A DNA stretch of 64,000 nucleotides, taken from contig NZ_JAIGNO010000003.1 of NCBI RefSeq assembly GCF_019711515.1, forward strand, positions 310,001 to 374,000, given 5' to 3'. Position 1 is the first letter of the stretch. Every line of letters begins with the position of its first letter. The stretch comes from Qipengyuania qiaonensis. GTDB lineage: Bacteria; Pseudomonadota; Alphaproteobacteria; Sphingomonadales; Sphingomonadaceae. The notes beneath the pieces are model-generated. The model was not told the origin of the DNA. It saw nothing but the letters and a program-made list of their open reading frames with translations, and did not search any database. Shown here piece after piece: positions 3,493 through 41,272 of this stretch. The position numbers were made by a program, and so were the translations under genes.

Positions 3493-4179
3493 CTAGGCGT
3501 CCTTCAGATAATAGCGCTTGCCCGACACGGTGGTGCCATCGAATTCGTAGATGATCGGCTGCCCCGTCGGGATCTCGAGCCCGGTGATCTCGTCGTCGGA
3601 GATGTTCGAGAGGTGTTTCACCAGCGCGCGCAGGCTGTTGCCATGGGCGGAAATGATGACAGTCTCGCCCTTGCCCAGCAGCGGCAGGATGGCGCTTTCC
3701 CAATAGGGCAGCACGCGTTCGATCGTGAGCTTTAAGCTCTCGGTACGCGGCACGTCGATGCCGGCGTAACGCGGATCGTCGGCGAGATCGAATTCGCTGC
3801 CCGCCTCCATCTCGGGTGGCGGAACGTCGAAGCTGCGGCGCCAGATATGGACCTGTTCGTCGCCATGCTTCTCGCGCATCTGCTGCTTGTCGAGACCGGT
3901 GAGGCCGCCATAATGCCGCTCGTTCAGGTGCCAGTCGCGCGTCACCGGGATCCACAACCGATCGCAGGCTTCGAGCGCGATATTGAGCGTCTTGATCGCG
4001 CGCTTCTGCACGCTCGTGAACGCGGTGGTGGGCAGCACGCCCTTGGCTTTCATCAACTCGCCGGCGTCGTGTGCTTCGGCTTCGCCCTTATCGGTCAGGT
4101 CGACATCCCACCAGCCGGTGAAGCGGTTGGCGAGGTTCCACTCGCTCTGGCCGTGGCGAACGAGGATCAGTTTCGACAT
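3493..4179 (-). CDS. gpmA: 2,3-bisphosphoglycerate-dependent phosphoglycerate mutase
   Basis: A 228-residue cytoplasmic histidine phosphatase-fold mutase that interconverts 3- and 2-phosphoglycerate. The phosphohistidine motif RHGQSEWN begins at residue 8 with catalytic H9. The second catalytic histidine lies in the [11 protein letters not shown] segment near residue 180. The length fits the dPGM family (about 228-250). It is first in a minus-strand run with purE and purK. The ATG at 4179 follows a GGAGTAAT-like ribosome site. Confidence 0.96.
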
Positions 4180-4212: not shown

Positions 4213-4356
4213 TTAGCGCTCCGTTTCTTCATTGGGAAGGCTTGTCTGGTCCGATTCGCGGATTTCGCGCCCCTGCGCTCTCCTGCGCCGCAGGTTCTCG
4301 CGAAGTTTCGCGGCAAGGCGCTCTTCGCGGCTCGATTTGTCGTTCTGGCTGCCCAT
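4213..4356 (-). CDS. Small basic hypothetical protein (47 aa)
   Basis: A short frame of 47 codons with ATG at 4356 and TAA at 4213-4215. It encodes a hydrophilic, Arg/Lys/Glu-rich chain with a core like REERLAAKLRENLRRRRAQ. The same style of 40-60-residue protein (a charged amphipathic helix followed by an acidic tail) is familiar in sphingomonad genomes, which is why I report it; that recollection cannot be checked here. It lies between gpmA and tRNA-Thr, co-directional with gpmA, with only a weak ribosome site (GCGAAAG). No function is known to me. Confidence 0.55.
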   Translation of the reverse strand: MGSQNDKSSREERLAAKLRENLRRRRAQGREIRESDQTSLPNEETER

Positions 4357-4467
4357 CGCGCAAGCTTTCGCCAATTTTGCGGCGCGGCTCAAGCGAAGGT
4401 TGACTTATCCGCCGTCTCTGCCAATAGCGCGCGCCTCCACTCCGCGAGGTTCTCGCGGCAGATCCGT

Positions 4468-4542
4468 GCTGCTGTAGCTCAGTGGTAGAGCGCACCCTTG
4501 GTAAGGGTGAGGCCGGGAGTTCAATCCTCCCCAGCAGCACCA
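4468..4542 (+). tRNA. tRNA-Thr (anticodon GGT)
   Basis: A full cloverleaf can be drawn. The acceptor GCTGCTG pairs with CAGCAGC, the D-arm stem is GCTC/GAGC, the anticodon stem CACCC/GGGTG encloses loop TTGGTAA (anticodon GGT), and the T-stem GGGAG/CTCCC encloses TTCAATC. A CCA end is encoded. The 3' 26 bases of this tRNA are duplicated at 12027, so this tRNA is the attachment site of the integrative element that follows. Confidence 0.96.
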
Positions 4543-4546
4543 TTTT
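4517..4546 (+). repeat. attL: 30-bp direct repeat within tRNA-Thr 3' end
   Basis: Identical over 30 bp to 12027-12056. It covers the T-arm 3' half, the acceptor and CCA of tRNA-Thr plus four T residues. This is the usual crossover region for tyrosine integrases that use tRNA genes. Confidence 0.92.
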
Positions 4547-4599
4547 CCTCCTAGGAACGGCGGAAATCTGGCAGAAAATCGAGGCTTATTGGCATCTGG

Positions 4600-4617
4600 C
4601 TGTTACAATTGTAACGG
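4600..4617. promoter_or_regulatory. Palindromic operator-like or integrase arm site upstream of int
   Basis: GTTACAATTGTAAC at 4602-4615 is a perfect 14-bp palindrome that ends 11 bp before the integrase ATG. The 8-mer CTGTTACA (4600-4607) recurs at 11946-11953 near the right end of the island, followed there by ttacaacgg (11962-11970). It could be an operator for int or an arm-type/excisionase site. The sequence shows symmetry and recurrence; the role is inference. Confidence 0.45.
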
Positions 4618-4626
4618 AGAAATCCA

Positions 4627-6057
4627 ATGTGCTCATATCTCGATCAGGTCGGATCAACCTACTATTTCCGCCGCGCCGTACCCCAAGACCTCATCGGCTT
4701 TTTCAAGACCCAGACGGGTAAAGCCCGGACGGATTGGAAATTCAGCCTACGAACCAAGGACCGGGAAACGGCGAAGCGTCTCCTGCGGCCCCACGAGGTT
4801 GAAACGGATGCGCTCATTGATGACGCCCGCCGGACCCTCGCTTCTGCCCGTGATGACGCCGGAGAGCGGATTGGGGGCGAAGGCGGGGGAGATGAGCGAT
4901 CAGAAGCCCTCGCCGCGCTGGAGGCTGCGCAGCGCGCCAGACGGGAGGCTCGCAGGGAAGGACGTATCGAGGTCCACAAGCGCCTCCAGCTAAGCACAGC
5001 CGAAATGGACCCGCAGGACGCCGCATGGATTGATGTGCTGCGCGAGAAAGGCATCTCGCTGGAGATGCTCCGTGAGGCCACAGTGGGGCTCAGGGCGGGC
5101 AACAAGGCACTTGAGGCACAGCGGCAAGGCAGCGGCAAGGCCCTAAGCATTTTCGGCCTCTTCGACCGCTACGCCGCCTCGGGTTCCGCCAACCCGAACA
5201 CGGCGCGCCGATGGCGCAACCGGGTTGAACAATTGGTGGAGCATCTGGGGCACGACGACGCGCGCCGAGTGACTCGGGCAGACCTGAACGGATGGACCGC
5301 CGCTCTGGTGGCAAAGGGTCTGGAAGGGAAAACTGTCCGGGATGGGTACCTGCCCGCCATCCGGGTCGCCTTTGCTGTGGCCTATGAGGATGGGGACATT
5401 CCCACCAACCCCGCTTCCGGATTGAAGGTGAGGGCGCCCAAGCCAACGAAGCTGCGGGAGCGCGAACTTACGGACGATGAGGCGGCCACGATCCTGCGGG
5501 GATCGCTGCAACCCCAGCCGAAGCGCCTGTCACCGGAGCACGCTTTGGCCCGCCGCTGGGTTCCTTGGCTTTGCGCCTACACGGGGGCGCGGGTCAGCGA
5601 AATAACGCAGCTACGAGCCACAGACATAACCAAAGCCGGAGACATTTGGCTAGTCCATATCACTCCGGAGGCAGGCGGAGTGAAAACCGGGGAGGCCCGG
5701 TTGGTACCGATCCATTCGCATCTATTGGACCAAGGCATTGCTCAGTTTGCGAAGACAGGTGACGAAGCGCCTCTGTTCTATCGGGAGGGTGCAGGGAGCG
5801 ACTTGAACCCCGGCTACAAACTGCGAGCCAGCGACCTCGCCAAGTGGGTCCGGACCCTCGGTGTTGATGCGCCCGCACCGAACCACGGCTGGCGACACAG
5901 ATTTAAGACGCAGGCCCGTATCGCTGAAATACCGGAATATCTTGCAGACAAAATACAGGGCCACGCCCCAGCGACAGAAGGTCGGAAATATGGTGGCTCG
6001 AACCTTTTGGTTCTCATGCGAAACGCTATCGAGAAGCTGCCGCGCTTCGATCTATGA
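4627..6057 (+). CDS. Site-specific tyrosine recombinase / integrase
   Basis: A 476-residue integrase expected to catalyse integration and excision at tRNA-Thr. The N-terminus (YLDQVGSTYYFRRAVPQDL) resembles the short SAM-like start of DUF6538-type integrases. A charged linker (about 65-120) and a core-binding domain (about 165-260) precede the catalytic domain (about 278-476). Candidate catalytic residues are R322 (GARVSE), K354, H420 and R423 (HGWRHRF), H446 (GHAP) and nucleophile Y455 (GRKYGG), so the active site is complete. The ATG at 4627 lies 80 bp from attL, with GGAG spaced before it and a palindrome just upstream. The gene reads away from the tRNA, as usual for such islands. Confidence 0.95.
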   Translation: MCSYLDQVGSTYYFRRAVPQDLIGFFKTQTGKARTDWKFSLRTKDRETAKRLLRPHEVETDALIDDARRTLASARDDAGERIGGEGGGDERSEALAALEAAQRARREARREGRIEVHKRLQLSTAEMDPQDAAWIDVLREKGISLEMLREATVGLRAGNKALEAQRQGSGKALSIFGLFDRYAASGSANPNTARRWRNRVEQLVEHLGHDDARRVTRADLNGWTAALVAKGLEGKTVRDGYLPAIRVAFAVAYEDGDIPTNPASGLKVRAPKPTKLRERELTDDEAATILRGSLQPQPKRLSPEHALARRWVPWLCAYTGARVSEITQLRATDITKAGDIWLVHITPEAGGVKTGEARLVPIHSHLLDQGIAQFAKTGDEAPLFYREGAGSDLNPGYKLRASDLAKWVRTLGVDAPAPNHGWRHRFKTQARIAEIPEYLADKIQGHAPATEGRKYGGSNLLVLMRNAIEKLPRFDL

Positions 6058-6089
6058 CGAACGCGGATCGCGCTCTTAGCGTGTGCTGA

Positions 6090-6335
6090 TCAGATATTAG
6101 CTTTGACTAGAAGGGCGGCCACAGACATTCGAAGGGCCGCTGCGACGCGGGCGAGGTTTAGGAAGCTTACATTTCTTTCGCCACGTTCAATCTTACCCAT
6201 GTGAGAGCGATCAATCTCAGAGGCGTCAGCGAGCGCCTCTTGTGAAAGCCCACATTCTAGCCTCGCCGCACGGATCGCCTTCCCCAATTTGAGAAGCTTT
6301 TCCTCGGGATCGGTCTTGGCGGACTTGCGCGGCAC
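6090..6335 (-). CDS. XRE-family regulator, similar in size to restriction-modification controller (C) proteins
   Basis: An 81-residue one-domain DNA-binding protein. A helix-turn-helix of the Cro/C1 type spans about residues 15-72, with the hallmark segments LGKAIRAARL, GLSQEALAD and KIERGERNVSFLNLARVAAALRMS. Size and the IERGERN core match controller proteins that time restriction-modification expression, and an R-M gene is on the same element. It starts with GTG at 6335; no strong ribosome site is seen. It is divergent from the 6409 gene across 73 bp, which probably contains its operator. Alternative role: repressor of the integrase or element. Confidence 0.85.
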   Translation of the reverse strand: MPRKSAKTDPEEKLLKLGKAIRAARLECGLSQEALADASEIDRSHMGKIERGERNVSFLNLARVAAALRMSVAALLVKANI

Positions 6336-6408
6336 GCATTTTCAGTTGCGCCAGATGCACCCATAGGCCACGGTATTTACGACCCATTTCGGGTGTAGGG
6401 GAGCGCAC

Positions 6409-6819
6409 GTGGGGATTTTCAGCAGGGTTACACGAAGGACGCCAGAGCCGGACATCGAGTTTGCCGCACGGGGATTCGTTCAGGTGGCCATAACGCGTCG
6501 CCATGCACCGCATTTGGATTTGCACAAGCTAGAGCGCGGATACGCAGCAGAGCTGCTGGAAGAAGGGTGCTCGCTGGAGCAGGCTTTGTCCGCTCGCTGG
6601 GGTGGAGCCTATGCTATTACGGCAAACCTGTCAGAGTTCGACGAAGCAATTGAGACCTTCAAGGATACCATGGCAGATGCGCTCGGCAGGCGGACTTTCA
6701 AAACGGCTGACGAGGCCAAAGTTGCCTATCAATCAGCGGCTGTCTTTTTGCTGGGCGTGGCGCATGCAGTTGACCCAAGGGAATACGGGAGATTTCTCGA
6801 TTACATCGGAGCAAGGTAG
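6409..6819 (+). CDS. Hypothetical protein (136 aa), island cargo
   Basis: I do not recognise this protein. It starts with GTG at 6409 and is predicted soluble and largely helical, with an acidic mid-part (LERGYAAELLEEGCSLEQAL) and a C-terminal segment (VAYQSAAVFLLGVAHAVDP) that could be a buried helix. There is no signal peptide, metal-binding cluster or enzyme motif. It is divergent from the XRE gene and convergent with the restriction-modification gene. Its place next to a controller-like regulator suggests a part in restriction regulation, anti-restriction or element maintenance, but this is guesswork. Confidence 0.65.
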   Translation: MGIFSRVTRRTPEPDIEFAARGFVQVAITRRHAPHLDLHKLERGYAAELLEEGCSLEQALSARWGGAYAITANLSEFDEAIETFKDTMADALGRRTFKTADEAKVAYQSAAVFLLGVAHAVDPREYGRFLDYIGAR

Positions 6820-7208
6820 GGGCGCACTTGTGTGGGTGCCTAGCAAGCTTTTTGTTGCTGATCGTAACTCGGGAAACCGTGCATGCTCCCTTGGCTTACC
6901 CTCTATCGCCCGTCCCATTTATGGGTCAACTAAATCCCGTGCGTCCTGCGAGTGTACATACTCCTGCTAGTCCATACGGCATTATTCAATTTCTACATCG
7001 TGGAGTGCAGGGGCTTCATTGGTTGCGTTGCCTTTGGCAGCCTAGTTTCTCCCCCCATGCCTCCCTGCGCCCCCATGGAACCCATGGTTTTTAAGGCAGG
7101 CGAACGGTTGTGTTATGACGGTATCAGATCAGGAAAACAAGGCAGGCTGGCCGCCCACGAAGCTGAGCCAGCAAGGCGATCTAGGTCACTGCGTGTGGTA
7201 GCTCCCAG
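6820..7208. other. Intergenic region of the island, no gene recognised
   Basis: This 389-bp stretch lies between two convergent genes. Open frames here start late, lack a ribosome site and show no protein-like composition. It is less GC-rich than the neighbouring genes. I see no tRNA and no strong terminator hairpin. Confidence 0.5.
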
Positions 7209-10094
7209 CTACTTGCTAGCCCGATCCTGATTGAGCTGGAAAAGCCGGGCGAGGATTTCGTCGTCGGTGAGGGTGCCAGCGCGGAAGTCGTCGCCCCAGC
7301 CGTAGGCGTCGGCCACGGCCTCGTCCAAGGCCCGGTGGGCGTGGTCTAGCCATGCGGGGCGGACGTTGTAGAGGTTGGTGAGGGTGCGCTTCTTCAACTC
7401 CTGGGCGGCGGCCTCGTTCTTTGGCAGGAGGCGGTCGGGGTAACCGGGGACGACCTCGGGGACGCGCTCGATCAGGTCGGGCGGGTTGAGCCAGTTCTCG
7501 CGCAACTCGTTGAGCCGGGCCGCTGCGATGGCGATGGCCACCGCGCGGGGATCACCGGCATAATTGGCGGCTGGAATATCGGGCGTGAGACCTTCGGGAA
7601 AGGGGAAGGTCTCGAAGCCTTGGGTCGGCGTGTATTGGGGATCGTTGCCCACACCGTGCCAACCACCAAGCGCAAGCGACCAAACCTCGTGGAAGGACGA
7701 ATGAAGCACGCCGAAGGCGCAGTCATCGTCCCGGCAGATAATGACCACGCGGCTGTCCGGTACGACGCGTCGCCCAGTCCAGACGAACAGTCTGTGCTTC
7801 GCCACGCGGGGAGTGAGGATAGCCCGACCGAGGCCGCTTACGGCCCGCTTGATCCCGGGCACCGTTTCGCCGTGTTGCCACCAGTACTGGCGGCGGCGTT
7901 CCCTGCGGTTCATATCGCGCACCGGCTTCACCACTTTGCGGACATATTCGAAGGGGGTTTCGTACAAACTGGCGTCAGTTTCCGTGCGCTCACCAAAGTC
8001 GATGATCCATCGGTCGCTAGGCCGACGGGTTATGTCGCTACCATTGAGTAGCGGCACGATTACCTTGGAGTTCTTGCTGCCATCAGGGTTGGACGGAAGG
8101 CCGAGCATTTCTCGTGCAAGCGCACCGTCAATGTCGAACGGCCCAACTTTCACCGGCCCCTGAAAGGCGACCTTGGCGTTAACTGGAAGCTGGGTCGCGG
8201 AAGTTAGGTCCACACCTCCCCGCTGTCCGGATAGGTCAGCATAGATTGCCTCAACCGGTTTGCCATCTAGCACCGCACCAGTATGCTGTTCACGGTCGAA
8301 GCAGAGCAATGACACTCTGACCGCTGCGCCTTCAACGGTCCACTCCTGATCGCCCCAAGCCTCGTATATCCGCCCGTGCTGCACGATGGGTTTGAGGACA
8401 TCACGGTTGGTACCGCTACGGATTGAGTTCGTGGAAACCAGCCCGGCACGTTTCAGTTTGTGCGCAACCATTCGATCCCATGCACCTGCAAACCAGTAGC
8501 ACACCAAGTCCGCCCCACCCGGCACCTGCGGCCAAGCCTTGCGGAGGGCGGTGGTGTACTCCTCCCCCAGTTCGGCGATCATCTTCTTGTTCCCGAGGAA
8601 AGGGGGGTTGCCGACGACGACATTGGCCTCTGGCCACCGGGCGCGTTCGCCGGTCACCACGTCCAACACGGCATCCCGGCACTCGATGTTGCCGAGGCTG
8701 CGGAGGATGGGATTGCGGGCGGCCTCGAAGCCGTTTCGGCGCATCCACTGGATTTCGCCAATCCAGACGGACACGCGGGCCAGCTCCGCCGCGTAGGGGT
8801 TCAGCTCGATGCCCAGAACGCTCTCTGGCCCGACCGCTGGGAACTCGCGCGAGCAACCCAGCGCCTCGGCCTCTAGGTTGGCGCGATGCTCCAAGTCTTT
8901 CAGGGCAAGCAGGGATAGGTACAGGAAGTTTCCCGAGCCGCAGGCAGGGTCAAGCACCCGGAACGTCCGCAGGCGCTCCACAAACCCTCTGAGCAGCTCC
9001 TGAGCCATGGCGAAGGCCCGGTCCCGCTTCGTCTTTTCCGCGCCTCGCAGGAGCTTCTCTGCGGTCTGTTGCGGGGCGTTGGCGACCAGCTCCTCGATCT
9101 GGCCCCGGATGGCCTCCCATTCGGCAGTGAGGGGCCGCTGGATGACCGGCCCCACGATCTGCATGATTTTGTCGCGGTCGGTGTAGTGCGCCCCGAGCTG
9201 GCTGCGCTTGTCGGGGTCCAGTCCGCGCTCGAACAGGGTGCCGAGTATCGAGGGGTCCACCTCTGACCAGTCCAGCGCGGCGGCGGCGATCAGGCTGTCG
9301 ATGTCGTTCCGGTCGAGCGGCAGTGCGCTGTCGTCATCGAACAGGCCGCCGTTGAACCACTCCACTTTGGTGAAGCCCACCAGCCCGCCCGACTTCATGG
9401 CGGCGAACAGGGTGGCGGCGTGGCCCGCGAAGCTCTCCGGCTGGCTGCGGCTGGCCTTGAGCATCTCTGAGAACATATGCCCGGGCAGGAGGCCAACGTC
9501 CTCGGCGAACATACAGAACACCAGCCGGTTGACGAAGTGAGCGACGGTGTGGCCCTCGTGGCCACGGTCGCGCAGCCGCTGGGCGAGCCGTGCGAACTCC
9601 TCGGCAGCTTCCTCGGTGAGCATCTGCCGGGTCTTCGCCGGGCGCAGGCGCTCGGGGTCTTCAAAGGCGGCTCGCAACATCTCGCGCGTGGCCCCGTCGA
9701 TCAGGTCGTCGAGTGCGAACTCGTGCACCTCCTGGACGGTGTTGGTCCAGTTGGTGTGCATGCGGAAGCGGTCCATGTCGGACACAATCAGGAGCGGCGG
9801 GTTCTCCAGCGCGATGGCGTATTGCTGGAGCTGGGCGAAAGCCTTGTTTAAGTCTTTCTTCTTGCCCTTGTACTCCCACGCGAAGCAGCCCTTGCGCCAC
9901 ACATCGGCCCAGCCCTCGCCGCCGCTGGTCTTGGTCGCACCTTTCTCGAAGGCGTACCACTCGCCCTTGGGGTCGGCCGTGATCGGATCATCGACCCCCA
10001 GTAATGCGCACAGGTCGTTGAAGTGGCTCTGCGATGCAGCGCGTTCGTTCAGTTGGGTGTTACGCCACTTGGCGATAAACTCTTGAGCCGTCAT
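7209..10094 (-). CDS. MmeI-like (Type IIL) restriction-modification enzyme: nuclease + adenine methyltransferase in one chain
   Basis: A 961-residue protein. The N-terminus carries a PD-(D/E)XK nuclease signature D64-X9-E74-Y-K76, the same spacing as I recall for MmeI. A helical connector follows (about 140-370). The N6-adenine methyltransferase domain has motif I DPACGSGNF at 382-390 and catalytic motif IV NPPF at 496-499. The C-terminal third (about 640-900) should hold the target recognition domain. Such enzymes methylate one strand of an asymmetric site and cut at a distance; no separate methylase or specificity subunit is needed, and none is present. Both active sites look intact. The serine recombinase gene lies 72 bp upstream on the same strand. 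DISARM DrmMI-type methylases are related, but no DISARM partner gene is present. Confidence 0.88.
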   Translation of the reverse strand: MTAQEFIAKWRNTQLNERAASQSHFNDLCALLGVDDPITADPKGEWYAFEKGATKTSGGEGWADVWRKGCFAWEYKGKKKDLNKAFAQLQQYAIALENPPLLIVSDMDRFRMHTNWTNTVQEVHEFALDDLIDGATREMLRAAFEDPERLRPAKTRQMLTEEAAEEFARLAQRLRDRGHEGHTVAHFVNRLVFCMFAEDVGLLPGHMFSEMLKASRSQPESFAGHAATLFAAMKSGGLVGFTKVEWFNGGLFDDDSALPLDRNDIDSLIAAAALDWSEVDPSILGTLFERGLDPDKRSQLGAHYTDRDKIMQIVGPVIQRPLTAEWEAIRGQIEELVANAPQQTAEKLLRGAEKTKRDRAFAMAQELLRGFVERLRTFRVLDPACGSGNFLYLSLLALKDLEHRANLEAEALGCSREFPAVGPESVLGIELNPYAAELARVSVWIGEIQWMRRNGFEAARNPILRSLGNIECRDAVLDVVTGERARWPEANVVVGNPPFLGNKKMIAELGEEYTTALRKAWPQVPGGADLVCYWFAGAWDRMVAHKLKRAGLVSTNSIRSGTNRDVLKPIVQHGRIYEAWGDQEWTVEGAAVRVSLLCFDREQHTGAVLDGKPVEAIYADLSGQRGGVDLTSATQLPVNAKVAFQGPVKVGPFDIDGALAREMLGLPSNPDGSKNSKVIVPLLNGSDITRRPSDRWIIDFGERTETDASLYETPFEYVRKVVKPVRDMNRRERRRQYWWQHGETVPGIKRAVSGLGRAILTPRVAKHRLFVWTGRRVVPDSRVVIICRDDDCAFGVLHSSFHEVWSLALGGWHGVGNDPQYTPTQGFETFPFPEGLTPDIPAANYAGDPRAVAIAIAAARLNELRENWLNPPDLIERVPEVVPGYPDRLLPKNEAAAQELKKRTLTNLYNVRPAWLDHAHRALDEAVADAYGWGDDFRAGTLTDDEILARLFQLNQDRASK

Positions 10095-10166
10095 GCGAAC
10101 GTCTTAGCGAAGATGGGAAGCCGCGAAAGTCCTTTGCCCATTGATTGCGCAATGGTGTGGAGCGCC

Positions 10167-10868
10167 TCAGTCAATGTTTTCGATTGAGGCGAGCACACGG
10201 CATACCTGTGTCGCTTGCCACTTGCCTCCGCGCGCTGTCCGTATGCCTTCTTCATTCAGTGCGCGGGCGATACCAGCCAAGCTAGTTGTTCCTCCGGACT
10301 GTATCTCCGCAATGGCCTGCCCAACGCGTCCGTTGAACTCCGCTGCCCTCGCCTGCCGCGCTACCATACCCAGCCGATGGTCAACGGGCATGCGGGCCTG
10401 TCCGTGCTTTTTGTGCTCCTTGCCGTACTCTCGCCACCCGCCCAGCTTCGTCCCCCTTGCTTTGGCTGCGGCCAGCGCCTCCTTTGTGCGCCTGCTGATA
10501 GCTTTGCGCTCATGCTGGGCCATCGCCGCCATGACATGGATAGTGAGTTCGTTGGCTTCCGGCATATCGGCGGCGACAAAGCTGACCCCCGCGTCCTGTA
10601 GCTGGGCTATGAAAGCCACGTTGCGGCTGAGTCGGTCAAGCTTCGCCACGAGGAGTGTGGCACCGGTGAGCTTGCACCTATTGAGCGCCTTGGTGAGTTC
10701 GGGACGTGCATCCTCCTTGCCGCTTTCCGTCTCGACATAGGTAGGGGTGAGCAACTTGTCCCCTTCGCGTAGGAATGCGTCAATGGCCGCTTGCTGGGCC
10801 TCCAACCCTAGGCCGCTTCGCCCCTGCTTGGCTGTCGATACACGAGCGTAAGCTACATAGTCGGTCAC
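10167..10868 (-). CDS. Serine recombinase / resolvase-family protein
   Basis: A 233-residue small serine recombinase. The catalytic N-terminal domain has YARVSTAKQ with nucleophile S11, LEAQQAAIDAFL, and the KLDRLSRN motif near residue 77. A C-terminal helix-turn-helix-like segment (SLAGIARALNEEGIRTARGG) follows. It starts with GTG at 10868, preceded by AGAGG. On this element it may act as a resolvase, an invertase or a second mobility enzyme beside the tyrosine integrase. No obvious inverted repeat pair bracketing an invertible segment was found. Confidence 0.92.
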   Translation of the reverse strand: MTDYVAYARVSTAKQGRSGLGLEAQQAAIDAFLREGDKLLTPTYVETESGKEDARPELTKALNRCKLTGATLLVAKLDRLSRNVAFIAQLQDAGVSFVAADMPEANELTIHVMAAMAQHERKAISRRTKEALAAAKARGTKLGGWREYGKEHKKHGQARMPVDHRLGMVARQARAAEFNGRVGQAIAEIQSGGTTSLAGIARALNEEGIRTARGGKWQATQVCRVLASIENID

Positions 10869-11470
10869 GAGGCACCTCTGTCAAAACGCGATGTTACGTT
10901 ACCAACTATGCTCGTTGACAGAAATGTAAAGCTCAACCTTCGCGTGGCTCCGCGGGTGGGGCTACGGGGGGAAACGCGCGCGTCAAAGGTCATAGGTGGG
11001 GCCTCTTGCGAGCATTTTATTTTCAGGTCGGGGTTGCGCCGGTTCGACTCGGGGTTGGCCACGCATTTCCGCCAATTTGGCGAATCGGTCGGCAGTCTGG
11101 GGCGACGGTCAAAGGGCCATGCGCGTGCAGAATCGCACCGGCGAATCACTCAACTGTGGAAAAGGCGACTTTTCCCCTATTTCTTGCCCAAGGGGTTGTG
11201 ACGCATCAGGGCCGAGGATTTCCGGCGAGTCGCCCTATCTGAAATTACGCCCGACGAAAGACAACCGGCGATAACTCCGGTATCCACAGGGTTATCCGCC
11301 TTGAACCGAGTGAACCGCGCATTCACCATGTTGATGGTTTGAGGCCGACGCGTCAGCAATGGCTGAAATCTAAGGGAAATGAGGAGGTCACCCGCACGGG
11401 CGGACCTCCCCATCCCGGAACAGAATGTGGCCCCTGTTACGGGTGCGCGATCCTGCCCTCTGTGCAAGCC
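10869..11470. other. Intergenic region of the island with operator-like and DnaA-box-like sites
   Basis: No convincing gene is seen in about 600 bp. It holds a short palindrome CGCCAATTTGGCG (11070-11082) and three DnaA-box-like nonamers: 11155-11163 (TGTGGAAAA, 8 of 9), 11280-11288 (GTATCCACA, 8 of 9) and 11292-11300 (TTATCCGCC, 7 of 9). The resolvase promoter should lie near 10880-10940 on the minus strand. The region may be a regulatory or replication-related segment of the element. Confidence 0.4.
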
Positions 11471-11659
11471 ATGCGTAGCATGGTTGAGATGGGACGCAAA
11501 GAACGTCGGGCCACCCTCACTATGAGGTTCGACATGTCCAAGGTCAGCGTACCCACGGGGAAGCGCGTGATCTGGCGTGCTTGGATTACGGTGAAGGGGA
11601 AGCGGGTTTACGCCCGTGAGCGCGGCATCTGTGCCTTTCCCATCATCTTAGACGAGTAA
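11471..11659 (+). CDS. Small basic hypothetical protein (62 aa)
   Basis: A frame of 62 codons rich in Arg/Lys, ending in a beta-like segment (GKRVIWRAWITVKGKRVYA). The start is uncertain: ATG at 11471, with alternatives at 11480 and 11489, none with a good ribosome site. Support comes from the protein-like composition and from a strong hairpin 11 bp after the stop (11670-11704). No function is recognised. It could be a small nucleic-acid-binding accessory protein of the island. Confidence 0.4.
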   Translation: MRSMVEMGRKERRATLTMRFDMSKVSVPTGKRVIWRAWITVKGKRVYARERGICAFPIILDE

Positions 11660-11669
11660 GCCAGATACA

Positions 11670-11704
11670 GCCTCCGCTGGTCATTGCACTTGGCTGGCGG
11701 AGGC
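11670..11704 (+). terminator. Hairpin terminator-like structure
   Basis: GCCTCCGC (11670-11677) pairs with GCGGAGGC (11697-11704) around a 19-base loop, just after the small ORF ending at 11659. There is no long T run, so it may be a weak or Rho-assisted terminator. Confidence 0.45.
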
Positions 11705-11756
11705 CCCTTCCTACGCTCACGCTGATAGACATGTCCTCGACAAGAAAGGAACGGAC

Positions 11757-11891
11757 ATGGCCCGCAATAGAGTGCCAACGCAAACGTCCCACCGCAGTTC
11801 GCGGACCGGACGCTTCGTGACCGAGCAGTATGCTCACCGCCATCCTGCCACGACCGAGCGGGAACGCATCAAACATCCTGAACGGAAATGA
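11757..11891 (+). CDS. Small basic conserved-type protein (44 aa)
   Basis: The ATG at 11757 is preceded at good spacing by AAGGA. The 44-residue product is Arg-, Thr- and His-rich with the core HRSSRTGRFVTEQYA followed by HPATTERE. Very short proteins with a core like HRSxxTGRFVTExYA..HP.TT are common in proteobacterial genomes and mobile elements (from memory, not checked). Function unknown. A strong hairpin begins 6 bp after the stop. It is the last gene before attR. Confidence 0.65.
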   Translation: MARNRVPTQTSHRSSRTGRFVTEQYAHRHPATTERERIKHPERK

Positions 11892-11896
11892 CACGG

Positions 11897-11926
11897 CGAG
11901 GCCCCTGCATGCGCGGGGGCCTCGTT
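11897..11926 (+). terminator. Rho-independent-like terminator
   Basis: CGAGGCCCC (11897-11905) pairs with GGGGCCTCG (11916-11924) around a 10-base loop, followed by TT. It directly follows the 44-residue gene and closes the island's right-hand transcript. Confidence 0.65.
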
Positions 11927-12026
11927 ATGCCTGATCTTGTAAAAACTGTTACAGCAGGCCATTACAACGGGAACAGCTACGCCAAAAGATACTGCGACTT
12001 TTCAACGCTTTAAGTGCGCGGGGTAA

Positions 12027-12056
12027 GAGTTCAATCCTCCCCAGCAGCACCATTTT
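12027..12056 (+). repeat. attR: 30-bp direct repeat of tRNA-Thr 3' end
   Basis: Identical to 4517-4546. Upstream bases do not continue the tRNA, so only the 3' fragment is present. This marks the right border of the integrated element. Confidence 0.92.
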
Positions 12057-12115
12057 TCGAAAAGCGATGTTTTTTTGGTGTCCGCATTGGCCTGCGCAGG
12101 TGCGCCATGCGAAGA

Positions 12116-13012
12116 TCAGATGGTTCTCTCCGCCTTGTCCTTGGCATTCGTGCCCTTGATCATCGCGCGCATCGCTTCCCACTGCTCGTCGTCCATGTCC
12201 TTGAGCGCGCCGTAGAAGCTGCCGCCATGCGCCTTGTAACCGGCGCCGTCGATAGCGATGGTTTCGCCGTTGATCCATTCGGCACCCGGCCCCATCAGGA
12301 ACACCGCGAGATTGGCGAGTTCGTGCATTTCGCCATGGCGGCCCATCGGGTTCATGTCGTCATGCGAATTCCCGCCGCGCCCGCCGGGCGACAGACGCGC
12401 GCTCATGCCGTCGGTGGGGAAGAGGCCCGGCGCGATGGCGTTGAAGCGCAGGCCGTAACGGCCCCATTCGACCGCCAGGCTCTGGGTCATCACGTTGAGA
12501 CCCGCTTTGCTCATCGCGCTCGGCACCACAAAGGGGCCGCCGTTCCGGACCCAGGTCGTGAGGATGGAGAGGAAGCTGGCCTTGCGCCCTTCCTCGATCA
12601 GCCGCTTGCCGACATCGAGCGTCACGTAGAAGCTGCCGCGAAAGACGATATCGCTGATCGCGTTGAAGCCGTTTACCGACAGATCCTCGGTCCGGCTGAT
12701 GAAATTGCCCGCGGCATTGTTGACTACCCCGGTCAGCGGCCCGTGCTGCCAGATCGTGTCGACCATGGTGCTGATCGCCTCCGGGTCGCGGATATCGCAG
12801 GCGTGGCCGATGATCTTTCCGCCATGCCGATCGGTTAGCTCACGGGCCGTTTCGTCGAGCTTGCCCTGCCGCCGCCCGCAGATATGCACTTCCGCGCCCA
12901 GCTTCAGAAATGCTTCCGCCATTTCTCTGCCAAGCCCGGTGCCGCCGCCGGTGACGAGGATGCGCTCGCCTTTCATCAGCCCATCGCGGTACATCAGCTT
13001 TGTAATATCCAT
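12116..13012 (-). CDS. 2,4-dienoyl-CoA reductase-type short-chain dehydrogenase (DECR1/fadH-like)
   Basis: A 298-residue SDR. The NADP(H) motif TGGGTGLG lies at residues 21-28 and VNNAAGNF near 97-104. The usual YxxxK tyrosine is missing: the segment reads FVVPSAMSK (161-169) with K169, the pattern I recall from mitochondrial DECR1 (FVVPSASAK), where another tyrosine acts. With AVEWGRYGLRFNAIAPG this supports reduction of 2,4-dienoyl-CoA during unsaturated fatty acid beta-oxidation. The ATG at 13012 has AAGGGAGAG upstream. It is the first chromosomal gene beyond the island and reads toward attR. Confidence 0.85.
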   Translation of the reverse strand: MDITKLMYRDGLMKGERILVTGGGTGLGREMAEAFLKLGAEVHICGRRQGKLDETARELTDRHGGKIIGHACDIRDPEAISTMVDTIWQHGPLTGVVNNAAGNFISRTEDLSVNGFNAISDIVFRGSFYVTLDVGKRLIEEGRKASFLSILTTWVRNGGPFVVPSAMSKAGLNVMTQSLAVEWGRYGLRFNAIAPGLFPTDGMSARLSPGGRGGNSHDDMNPMGRHGEMHELANLAVFLMGPGAEWINGETIAIDGAGYKAHGGSFYGALKDMDDEQWEAMRAMIKGTNAKDKAERTI

Positions 13013-39964: not shown

Positions 39965-41272
39965 ATGTCTGAACCTCTTCGCATAGCTCTGGCCGGGCTC
40001 GGCACCGTCGGCACTGGCGTGATCGAGCTGCTCGAAACCAACCGGTCGATGATCGAACGCCGCGCCGGACGCGCGCTGGAAATCGTCGCCGTCAATGCAC
40101 GCGACCGCACGCGCGACCGCGGCATCGACCTCACGCCCTATGCCTGGGTCGACGACATGCAGGCGATGGCCGGGCGGGTCGACGTCGACGTGGTTGTCGA
40201 ACTGGTCGGCGGATCCGATGGTCCCGCGCTGACACTGGCGCGAGCGGCGCTTGATGAAGGCAAGGCATTCGTGACCGCAAACAAGGCCATGATCGCCCAT
40301 CACGGCCTGTCGTTGGCGGAGCAGGCGGCACTAAGGGGCGTGCCACTCAAGTTCGAAGCGGCCGTTGCCGGCGGCATCCCCGTGGTAAAGGGATTGCGCG
40401 AAGGCGCGGCAGCCAACCGGATCGAGCGCATTTACGGCATCCTCAACGGCACCTGCAATTACATCCTCTCCGAAATGGAGCGTACGGGTGCCGATTTTGG
40501 CGACATGCTGCGCGCGGCTCAGGAGAAAGGCTATGCGGAGGCTGATCCGACATTCGATGTCGAAGGTGTCGATGCCGCGCACAAACTGGCCATTCTGGCG
40601 GCAATAGGCTTCGGCGCGCGGGTGAATTTCGATGGGGTCGAGGCGACGGGTATCGGCGAGGTCCGAGCCGCCGACATCACTCAGGCCGGCACTCTCGGCT
40701 ATGTCATACGCCTGGTCGGCATAGCCTCGCTCGATCAGAGCGGCGCGGAGGCTGCATTGCTCCAGCGGGTTCGCCCATGTCTGGTGGCGCGGGGGCATCC
40801 GCTCGCCGCGGTCACCGGACCGACCAATGCGGTGGTGGCGGAAGGCAATTTCTCGGGCCGCCTGCTCTTCCAGGGCGCGGGCGCGGGCGCCGGGCCGACC
40901 GCGAGCGCCGTGGTGGCCGATCTCATAGATATCGCGCGCGGCGATAGCGGGGCGCCCTTCTCGGTTCCGGTCGAGGAACTCGAAAAGTTCGCTCCGGCCG
41001 ATCCAGGAAACCGCGTGGGGCGCGATTACATCCGTTTCACCGTCACCGATCGCCCCGGCGTGCTTGCGGAGATCACGGCTGCCATGCGCGATGCGGAGGT
41101 GTCTATCGAGAGCCTGATCCAGCGTGGACGCGACCACGAAGGTGGCGAAGTTCTGGTCGCGATGGTCACGCATGAAGGGCCGGAACGCTGCGTGAGCAAG
41201 GCTCTTGCTCTGCTCGACGGGTCGCCTAGCCTGACGGCTCCTCCGTTGGTGATGCCGATTCTGAAGGATTGA
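39965..41272 (+). CDS. hom: Homoserine dehydrogenase
   Basis: 435 residues. An N-terminal NAD(P)-binding fold (GLGTVGTGV at 11-19), the catalytic domain with GILNGTCNYIL and EADPTFDVEGVDAAHKL, and a C-terminal ACT domain (about 348-425, VTDRPGVLAEITAAM) for feedback control by threonine. It reduces aspartate semialdehyde to homoserine for threonine and methionine synthesis. The 3' end overlaps a convergent gene by 47 bp. Confidence 0.97.
   Translation: MSEPLRIALAGLGTVGTGVIELLETNRSMIERRAGRALEIVAVNARDRTRDRGIDLTPYAWVDDMQAMAGRVDVDVVVELVGGSDGPALTLARAALDEGKAFVTANKAMIAHHGLSLAEQAALRGVPLKFEAAVAGGIPVVKGLREGAAANRIERIYGILNGTCNYILSEMERTGADFGDMLRAAQEKGYAEADPTFDVEGVDAAHKLAILAAIGFGARVNFDGVEATGIGEVRAADITQAGTLGYVIRLVGIASLDQSGAEAALLQRVRPCLVARGHPLAAVTGPTNAVVAEGNFSGRLLFQGAGAGAGPTASAVVADLIDIARGDSGAPFSVPVEELEKFAPADPGNRVGRDYIRFTVTDRPGVLAEITAAMRDAEVSIESLIQRGRDHEGGEVLVAMVTHEGPERCVSKALALLDGSPSLTAPPLVMPILKD

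Follow-up and report, generated by a model that had tools for sequence, protein, structure and literature searches.

A compact tRNA-Thr(GGT) island of Qipengyuania qiaonensis with a likely MmeI-type restriction enzyme as cargo, and its relatives with other cargo

Tycheposons and P4-like satellites join an integrase to exchangeable cargo, and the same arrangement is found in a 7.5-kb insert in the genome of Qipengyuania qiaonensis (Alphaproteobacteria; Sphingomonadales; Sphingomonadaceae). The insert lies in a stretch of 64,000 nucleotides, called the window below, which covers positions 310,001 to 374,000 of contig NZ_JAIGNO010000003.1 (assembly GCF_019711515.1); all coordinates are those of the window. 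Among described systems, the tmRNA islands I23, I44 and I55 of Pseudomonas and the 'phage defense elements' come close; the islands measure 23-55 kb, with related ones from under 20 to over 70 kb, and a jumbo phage serves as the carrier of I55 (PMC12595487; this and the later citations are to excerpts of the respective papers). Like the insert, they occupy the 3′ end of an RNA gene, are bounded by direct repeats and have a tyrosine integrase at one end; they also combine variable cargo that includes defence genes, type II restriction-modification (R-M) among them, with a conserved distal end, without recognised transfer genes. I55-type islands differ in being larger, in having AlpA at the distal end and in commonly carrying RadC-, YqaJ- and Gp2-like genes, and the excerpts describe no companion serine recombinase (PMC12595487). 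None of the main open reading frames (ORFs) of the window gave a Pfam match to AlpA or to the RadC-, YqaJ- or Gp2-like genes, the tiny right-end ORFs lying outside that scan.

The PICMIs of Vibrionaceae resemble the insert in their size of about 6 kb, their integrase, their 17-bp direct repeats and their slot for type I or type II R-M, but they are integrated at fis, are defined by integrase, AlpA and primase together, and travel in helper-phage particles (PMC10803314). In the window, the site is tRNA-Thr and not fis, and no AlpA or primase match was obtained among the main ORFs. GInt islands share the tripartite plan of integration genes, cargo and a short distal end, but their integration genes are ginABCD, that is, three putative integrases and a small protein of putative DNA-binding type, whereas the insert has a single tyrosine integrase (PMC5385486). 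Compact islands at RNA genes or at fis with restriction cargo are already known, as far as these excerpts go, and the insert is a variant of them. A preliminary description of the locus had presented it as a minimal mobile defence unit of a form not widely described for Type IIL enzymes. That claim was too strong, given that an excess of single-polypeptide Type IIC systems in mobile elements has been reported (PMC4176335) and that restriction islands at tmRNA and fis have been published (PMC12595487, PMC10803314). Among the titles listed in our searches of open-licence papers, there was none on the DUF6538 island family described below, on its Type IIL cargo or on its companion serine recombinase.

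The insert is a compact integrative island at the 3′ end of a tRNA-Thr(GGT) gene, bounded by att repeats. The tRNA gene (4468-4542, forward strand; ARAGORN; Rfam tRNA, 73.2 bits) is the integration target and is kept whole after insertion. The left att repeat (4517-4546, forward), made up of the last 26 bases of the tRNA and TTTT, recurs exactly at 12027-12056 (forward), just as the preliminary description had it, and the start-to-start spacing of the two 30-bp direct copies is 7510 bp. The 64-kb window has no third copy of this 30-mer, and exact repeats in 200 mononucleotide shuffles of 4300-12300 did not exceed 17 bp. On the other side of the tRNA lies a histidine-phosphatase (phosphoglycerate-mutase-like) gene (3493-4179, reverse; PF00300), and the right repeat is flanked by an SDR gene (12116-13012, reverse). 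Because the GC content of the insert (0.608) is so close to that of the whole window (0.623), composition says little about the insert. No relaxase, conjugation or phage structural family appears among the Pfam matches of the main island ORFs, in line with the earlier statement that phage and conjugation genes are absent. The five genes listed earlier are present as described, but two short ORFs at the right end had been overlooked. The picture of a compact tRNA-Thr island with an intact-looking integrase, att repeats and a one-gene restriction system, without recognised transfer genes, is borne out. We consider it highly probable that this is a small integrative island with an exchangeable middle, occupied here by a one-polypeptide MmeI-type enzyme, its mobility and its restriction activity being inferred from the sequence.

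The same chromosomal site is found without an insert elsewhere in the genus. Among 29 tRNA-Thr loci taken as best matches from other genomes of the genus (L008-L036), three (L012, L025 and L026) are uninterrupted, with the phosphatase gene, tRNA-Thr, one repeat copy and the SDR gene contiguous. The repeat copy of L012 is identical at 29 of 30 bases, the distance from tRNA/repeat to the SDR gene is about 60 bp at the three sites, about as in the window, and the window flanks, joined in silico, align with all three through the repeat. The preliminary description had proposed looking for such empty sites, and had named paired repeats with nothing between them as an observation that would count against an insertion; the three sites have a single copy each, and no such pair was seen there. 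Nor did any relative turn up with these genes at this location, the setting of its other counter-example (the genes present, the att repeats absent). The phosphatase gene adjoins the tRNA in 29 of 29 loci, and the SDR gene was found in five, two of which (L024 and L032) have about 300 bp between tRNA and SDR; in the remaining 24, the SDR gene lies outside the stretch examined, so that these loci are uninformative either way. An integrase of the DUF6538 island family was present in none of the 29 loci, for which about 1.5 kb downstream was covered. Larger stretches in the genus were taken only for genomes G002 and G056. A simple script supplied the ORF calls beyond the window, and functions given here and below as assigned by eye are without profile support. 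In G002 (L216, G002:C14:242500-260500), the same tRNA-Thr site holds a different element of 14.9 kb with a 56-bp repeat, in which AlpA-like, primase-like and terminase-like genes, a far-end integrase and a 196-aa serine recombinase were noted by eye. In G056 (L217, G056:C13:128500-148400), two tRNA-Thr tails stand about 32 kb apart, with copper/metal-resistance-like genes, by eye, in the part examined.

The integrase gene (4627-6057, forward) encodes a tyrosine recombinase in which Pfam recognises an N-terminal DUF6538 (PF20172) and PF00589. The protein looks intact and retains TGAR (319), HGWR (420), QGH (444) and a following Y, which we take to be the catalytic motifs. There are 151 relatives of it in genome contigs, of which the best 80 were analysed, and at E<=1e-70 at least 20 of 397 genomes of the bacterial family, its own included, have one, a lower bound given that four candidates were scored per genome. 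At E<=1e-60, three of 59 other genomes of the genus have a related integrase, at 40-49% identity. A second, distant integrase (27-35% identity) is encoded in a 593-aa frame of the same genome (G000:C30:23936-25405). Removal of five duplicates and of L212, which gave no match under the filter used, from 102 sequences left 96 distinct integrase loci. In 80 of these, the integrase lies just downstream of a tRNA gene and in the same orientation, the targets being tRNA-Ser, Thr, Leu, Tyr, Phe and Pro. The tRNA labels cluster on the integrase tree (94 rows; a quick method, without bootstrap), with 32 changes as against a shuffled mean of 58.3 and 0 of 200 shuffles as low. The window integrase falls in a five-row clade (SH-aLRT 97) in which all members, including the four closest integrases sampled, are in tRNA-Thr(GGT). 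Judged by its integrase, the window island belongs to a family of islands.

The nearest relative sampled, L178 (integrase 63% identical), occupies tRNA-Thr(GGT) with 4192 bp and is bounded by a repeat of 34 bp. Its DNA is 78.8% identical to the window at the left end (4468-4829) and again at the right end (11404-11928), but only 68.6% identical over the integrase body (5158-5993), and its one ORF above 100 aa besides the integrase encodes a different serine recombinase. L178 had been identified via its integrase and not via its right-end DNA. This pair of islands shows that, at the DNA level, the ends can persist while the middle cargo is exchanged. Other members carry other cargo. In L037 (7599 bp), which like L039 belongs to the tRNA-Thr clade, a serine recombinase stands with an XRE gene and an N4/N6 methylase, adjoined by a 255-aa ORF that is nuclease-like by eye and has no Pfam match at E<=1e-4; L039 (7898 bp) combines a serine recombinase with an Exo_endo_phos protein. 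In L184 (tRNA-Leu), the same integrase-XRE pair is accompanied by a serine recombinase and by the R, S and M genes of a Type I system; in L181, where no tRNA was called nearby, a serine recombinase and an XRE gene (57% identical to that of the window) stand with R and M genes of Type I; L192 (tRNA-Ser) has a serine recombinase and, by eye, HsdM/HsdS-like genes. None of these last three has an established far end. Between the repeats of L187 there are only 2.7 kb, with an ORF of 91 aa and a serine recombinase gene besides the integrase, and in L038 neither a serine recombinase within 9 kb nor a second repeat was found. Two further observations may be recorded. At and beyond the right repeat of L037 (L037:15836-16372) there is a degraded stretch that resembles, by eye, the N-terminus of this same integrase, as if from a past tandem island. 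A small protein with the motif RRRxRDRxCYxCHLxR recurs in islands and near XRE relatives (L039:13355-13759, L181:13750-14166, L232 and L234).

The trend toward restriction cargo is also seen when the two sides of the tRNA are compared. For 26 loci chosen from the 80, proteins encoded in 7.5 kb inside the island (150 of 154 ORFs, L059 giving no inside ORF) were set against those in 7.5 kb outside the tRNA (144 proteins); the inside spans, here and in the 9-kb counts below, may extend beyond island ends. Resolvase is the commonest Pfam family inside (13 of 150), with three C5-methylases, three HsdS and two HsdM/N6 methylases, whereas none of these is in the commonest 25 of the 126 families outside. 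At 1e-10, 254 PADLOC models match the inside pool and eight the outside pool; the models are redundant, and these numbers are not counts of systems. Among the 25 listed of the 254 are models of Type I specificity and of Type II methylases, each with three members, and none of the eight outside models is named for restriction or methylation. Two phage portals are among the 150 inside proteins, so that the wider integrase family may include some prophages.

The cargo of the window island is a 961-aa protein (7209-10094, reverse), an MmeI-type (Type IIG/IIL) one-polypeptide restriction-methyltransferase by its Pfam and PADLOC matches and its alignment to MmeI, with a likely antiviral function. 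The domains MmeI_N, MmeI_hel and MmeI_Mtase (PF20464, PF20465 and PF20473) score 57.3, 52.7 and 105.3 bits, with a cut-off of 27 for each, and the PADLOC model REase_MTase_IIG scores 1069.5 bits. MmeI itself (PDB 5hr4) is likewise a single polypeptide with an N-terminal D...ExK nuclease, a helical spacer, a gamma-class adenine methylase and a target-recognition part; its nuclease residues are D70...E80xK82, and motif I (DPACGxGxFL), motif IV (NPPF) and a conserved His are further marks of the family (PMC4833311). The window enzyme is a distant relative (phmmer E=2.7e-45) with a diverged target-recognition part. Its D64, E74 and K76 align with D70, E80 and K82 of MmeI, and its motifs are WAD62, EYK74, GAHYT301, DPACGSG382 (DPACGSGNFL) and NPPF496.

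Next to the enzyme gene, at higher coordinates, stands the gene of a small serine recombinase of 233 aa (10167-10868, reverse), with a resolvase catalytic domain (PF00239, 101 bits; YARVS and LDR motifs) and an HTH_62/Recombinase-like tail. Such a gene is a frequent companion of these integrases. With a profile built from eight sequences from inside islands, a serine recombinase was found within 9 kb on the inside in 37 of 96 loci and on the outside in two of 96 (683 and 688 kb of DNA, respectively), and without the eight loci that seeded the profile the figures are 29 of 88 and 2 of 88. Within the tRNA-Thr clade, the window recombinase shares no more than 30-33% identity with its counterparts in L178, L037 and L039, whose integrases are 63-67% identical to that of the window. 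Across 36 islands, the correlation between integrase identity and recombinase identity is weak (r=0.22; 0 of 999 permutations as high). Since the serine recombinases diverge where the integrases stay close, the recombinase slot seems to have been refilled by different lineages.

About 25 bp upstream of the recombinase gene there is an imperfect 36-bp dyad (10894-10929, reverse), present in one copy, a candidate crossover or operator site. An upstream dyad significant at p<=0.05 accompanies 11 of 37 serine recombinases and six of 74 control ORFs, and nine of the 11 belong to a group of 15 recombinases with lengths of 219-264 aa, which is also the size class of the window protein. The left arm of the window dyad, TTACATnnnTGTCAACG, is common to L087, L111 and L193. 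The exact pattern TTACATNNNTGTCWACG, which was derived from these same loci, was met in 235 loci only in L087, L111 and L193 and in two loci of the own genome that cover the site; in the window it matches exactly once, and a further match, at 41026, differs at two positions. A second copy of the dyad, whether direct or inverted, was found in none of 10 islands (the nine of the larger size class with significant dyads and the window island, the significant L059 and L189 being left out), the best other match reaching at most 20 of 36-38 positions. Inversion and phase variation by an invertase are not favoured: there is no inverted second dyad in the 10 islands, and the inverted repeats of the region are short and imperfect. 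A single dyad per island would suit resolution of dimers or tandem copies and not inversion, and a function as operator is equally possible.

A rival view assigns mobility of the middle to this protein, with the serine recombinase moving a nested cassette, made up of itself and the restriction gene, within an older integrase island. In its favour, the low identity of the window recombinase to those of islands with close integrases means that these genes have been exchanged. A further locus, L212 (G168:C8:951000-970000), has the N-terminal fragment of an 84%-identical MmeI enzyme and a serine recombinase other than that of the window, arranged as in the window, next to an integrase that a custom profile, and not the DUF6538 scan, assigns to the family, beside tRNA-Tyr. 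A TIR-like protein was also noted there by eye, and the whole has the look of decayed sister cargo. Against a mobile cassette, no second dyad was found in the 10 islands scanned, and the DNA similarity between L212 and the window (8860-10115) stops about 20 bp upstream of the MmeI gene. We consider the nested cassette unlikely.

The remaining genes can be treated briefly. The XRE/HTH_3 regulator (6090-6335, reverse; PF01381) is convergent with the integrase and had been called controller-like in the preliminary description. PADLOC does match it to 'Control_protein', but other generic helix-turn-helix models match as well, and the neighbourhoods of its relatives point to integrases and not to restriction genes. 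A 72%-identical XRE gene occupies the same place directly behind the integrase in L184, and in both islands the restriction gene begins 0.8-0.9 kb from XRE, behind another ORF. XRE matches occur in 13 of 249 genomes of the bacterial family (E<=1e-18, own included), and by eye the other 11 relatives have no restriction gene within 1.5 kb. The gene stands directly beside a DUF6538-type integrase in the window and L184, and inside the island in L181, and by eye its relatives in L227, L230, L231 and L232 are near other tyrosine recombinases; across the 96 integrase loci, XRE is adjacent to the integrase in only three. Because the L184 pair precedes Type I cargo and the other relatives are without a nearby restriction gene, the XRE protein is probably an island-linked regulator rather than the controller of the enzyme, although the evidence is modest.

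An ORF at 6409-6819 (forward) encodes a 136-aa protein with no match in Pfam (E<=0.1), PADLOC or NCBIfam (E<=0.01), and among 199 genomes of the bacterial family it was found in its own only. The conserved right-end block (11404-11928, forward) contains ORFs of 45 aa (11522-11659, forward) and 44 aa (11757-11891, forward), both kept in L178, where 22 of 30 and 22 of 27 base differences, respectively, fall at third positions. About 50-60 bp upstream of the 45-aa ORF, within 11404-11520, are almost invariant between the window and L178 and are a possible att arm or regulatory site. No Rfam family reaches its gathering score in the block. Among the islands compared, the block was seen in L178 only, and in 149 genomes of the bacterial family the right-end DNA matched in three at E<=0.001, over its whole length only in its own, with no plasmid match.

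These elements can be combined into a working model. The integrase would recombine a circular form of 7510 bp, with a single att copy, into the tRNA end, and could excise it again, with the XRE protein, the two tiny right-end proteins, or both, regulating or directing excision. The single dyad that precedes the serine recombinase gene would be the site at which its product resolves dimers or tandem copies. The MmeI-type enzyme would methylate host DNA and cut incoming unmethylated DNA, and the host would gain protection from phages, so that the island would be favoured. As the island has no recognised transfer genes, it would probably move with a helper, either by phage transduction, as in I55, or on a conjugating replicon. 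More broadly, and tentatively, we propose an undescribed alphaproteobacterial family of two-recombinase defence islands, in which the DUF6538 integrase fixes the tRNA address, a small serine recombinase, recruited separately and replaced many times over, acts at a single dyad beside its gene and keeps circles and tandems monomeric, and a middle of Type IIL, Type I or perhaps Type II genes is swapped between islands at different tRNAs; this proposal is plausible, but we hold it with somewhat less than even confidence.

Several observations weigh against the island reading and the working model. The same island was found in no other genome searched, and recent movement is thus not evident. The recombinase could be an incidental passenger: the window dyad taken alone is not significant (p=0.144), and the control ORFs deviate mildly too (combined p 0.014, as against 1.3e-6 for the recombinases). 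Of the 96 integrase loci, 59 have no serine recombinase within 9 kb. In the enzyme, MmeI_TRD (PF20466, 25.0 bits) and MmeI_C (PF20467, 21.1 bits) stay under the Pfam cut-off of 27. Nor is the enzyme tied to this type of island. It has homologues at E<=1e-150 in 19 of 397 genomes of the bacterial family, own included; of 72,556 plasmid records, 120 match island DNA, the best 20 of these all within the enzyme-gene part and two of the 20 annotated as type IIL enzyme MmeI; and 13 relatives at 45-68% identity are on IMG/VR viral contigs. Of the 18 other MmeI neighbourhoods in the bacterial family, 17 are without a DUF6538-family integrase, one of these (L201) having a serine recombinase. With L212 as the exception, the enzyme thus usually travels by other means and has entered this broad island type at least twice.

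A helper phage brings up another reading, that of a phage satellite of PICMI, P4 or PICI type with unrecognised replication genes. Size, an integrase beside the att site, a DNA-binding regulator and defence cargo do recall PICMIs as excerpted (PMC10803314), and the L216 element at the same tRNA, with its primase- and terminase-like genes, and the two portals of the inside pool fit as well. IMG/VR viral contigs also hold nine integrase relatives (34-52% identity), beside the enzyme relatives already mentioned. Two of the nine contigs (L130 and L131) pair a DUF6538-family integrase with a small serine recombinase, and may be proviruses with this pairing, or else islands wrongly classed as viruses. 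However, Pfam finds no AlpA, primase or capsid family in the main ORFs, none of 50,697 phage records matches the integrase at E<=1e-20, and the target is not fis, so that we rate a satellite as rather improbable, below the nested cassette. A further view, in which the island has decayed from a larger integrative or mobilisable element and can no longer move, might draw on the missing relaxase and transfer genes, on the stretches at about 6820-7200 and 10870-11500 without convincing ORFs and on the existence of repeat-bounded relatives of up to 16.3 kb (L195, 19-bp repeat). It is very improbable, given that integrase, MmeI-type enzyme and serine recombinase have kept their motifs and full length and that paired repeats recur in relatives of about this size or less (2729, 4192, 7202, 7443, 7599 and 7898 bp, within the 10-17 kb or so of downstream DNA examined, the 15-19-bp repeats of longer ones being perhaps partly due to chance), the nearest, L178, being smaller.

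Taken as a small integrative island, then, the insert would be a very small package with which to move an immune system: an integrase that reads an address, one cargo gene and a resolvase-like protein. Its family provides comparable repeat-bounded examples, from 2.7 to about 16 kb, in which the cargo changes while the ends can stay. With them one may ask by what route defence genes change places, why the second recombinase is frequent and yet replaced time and again, and what carries islands that lack transfer genes.

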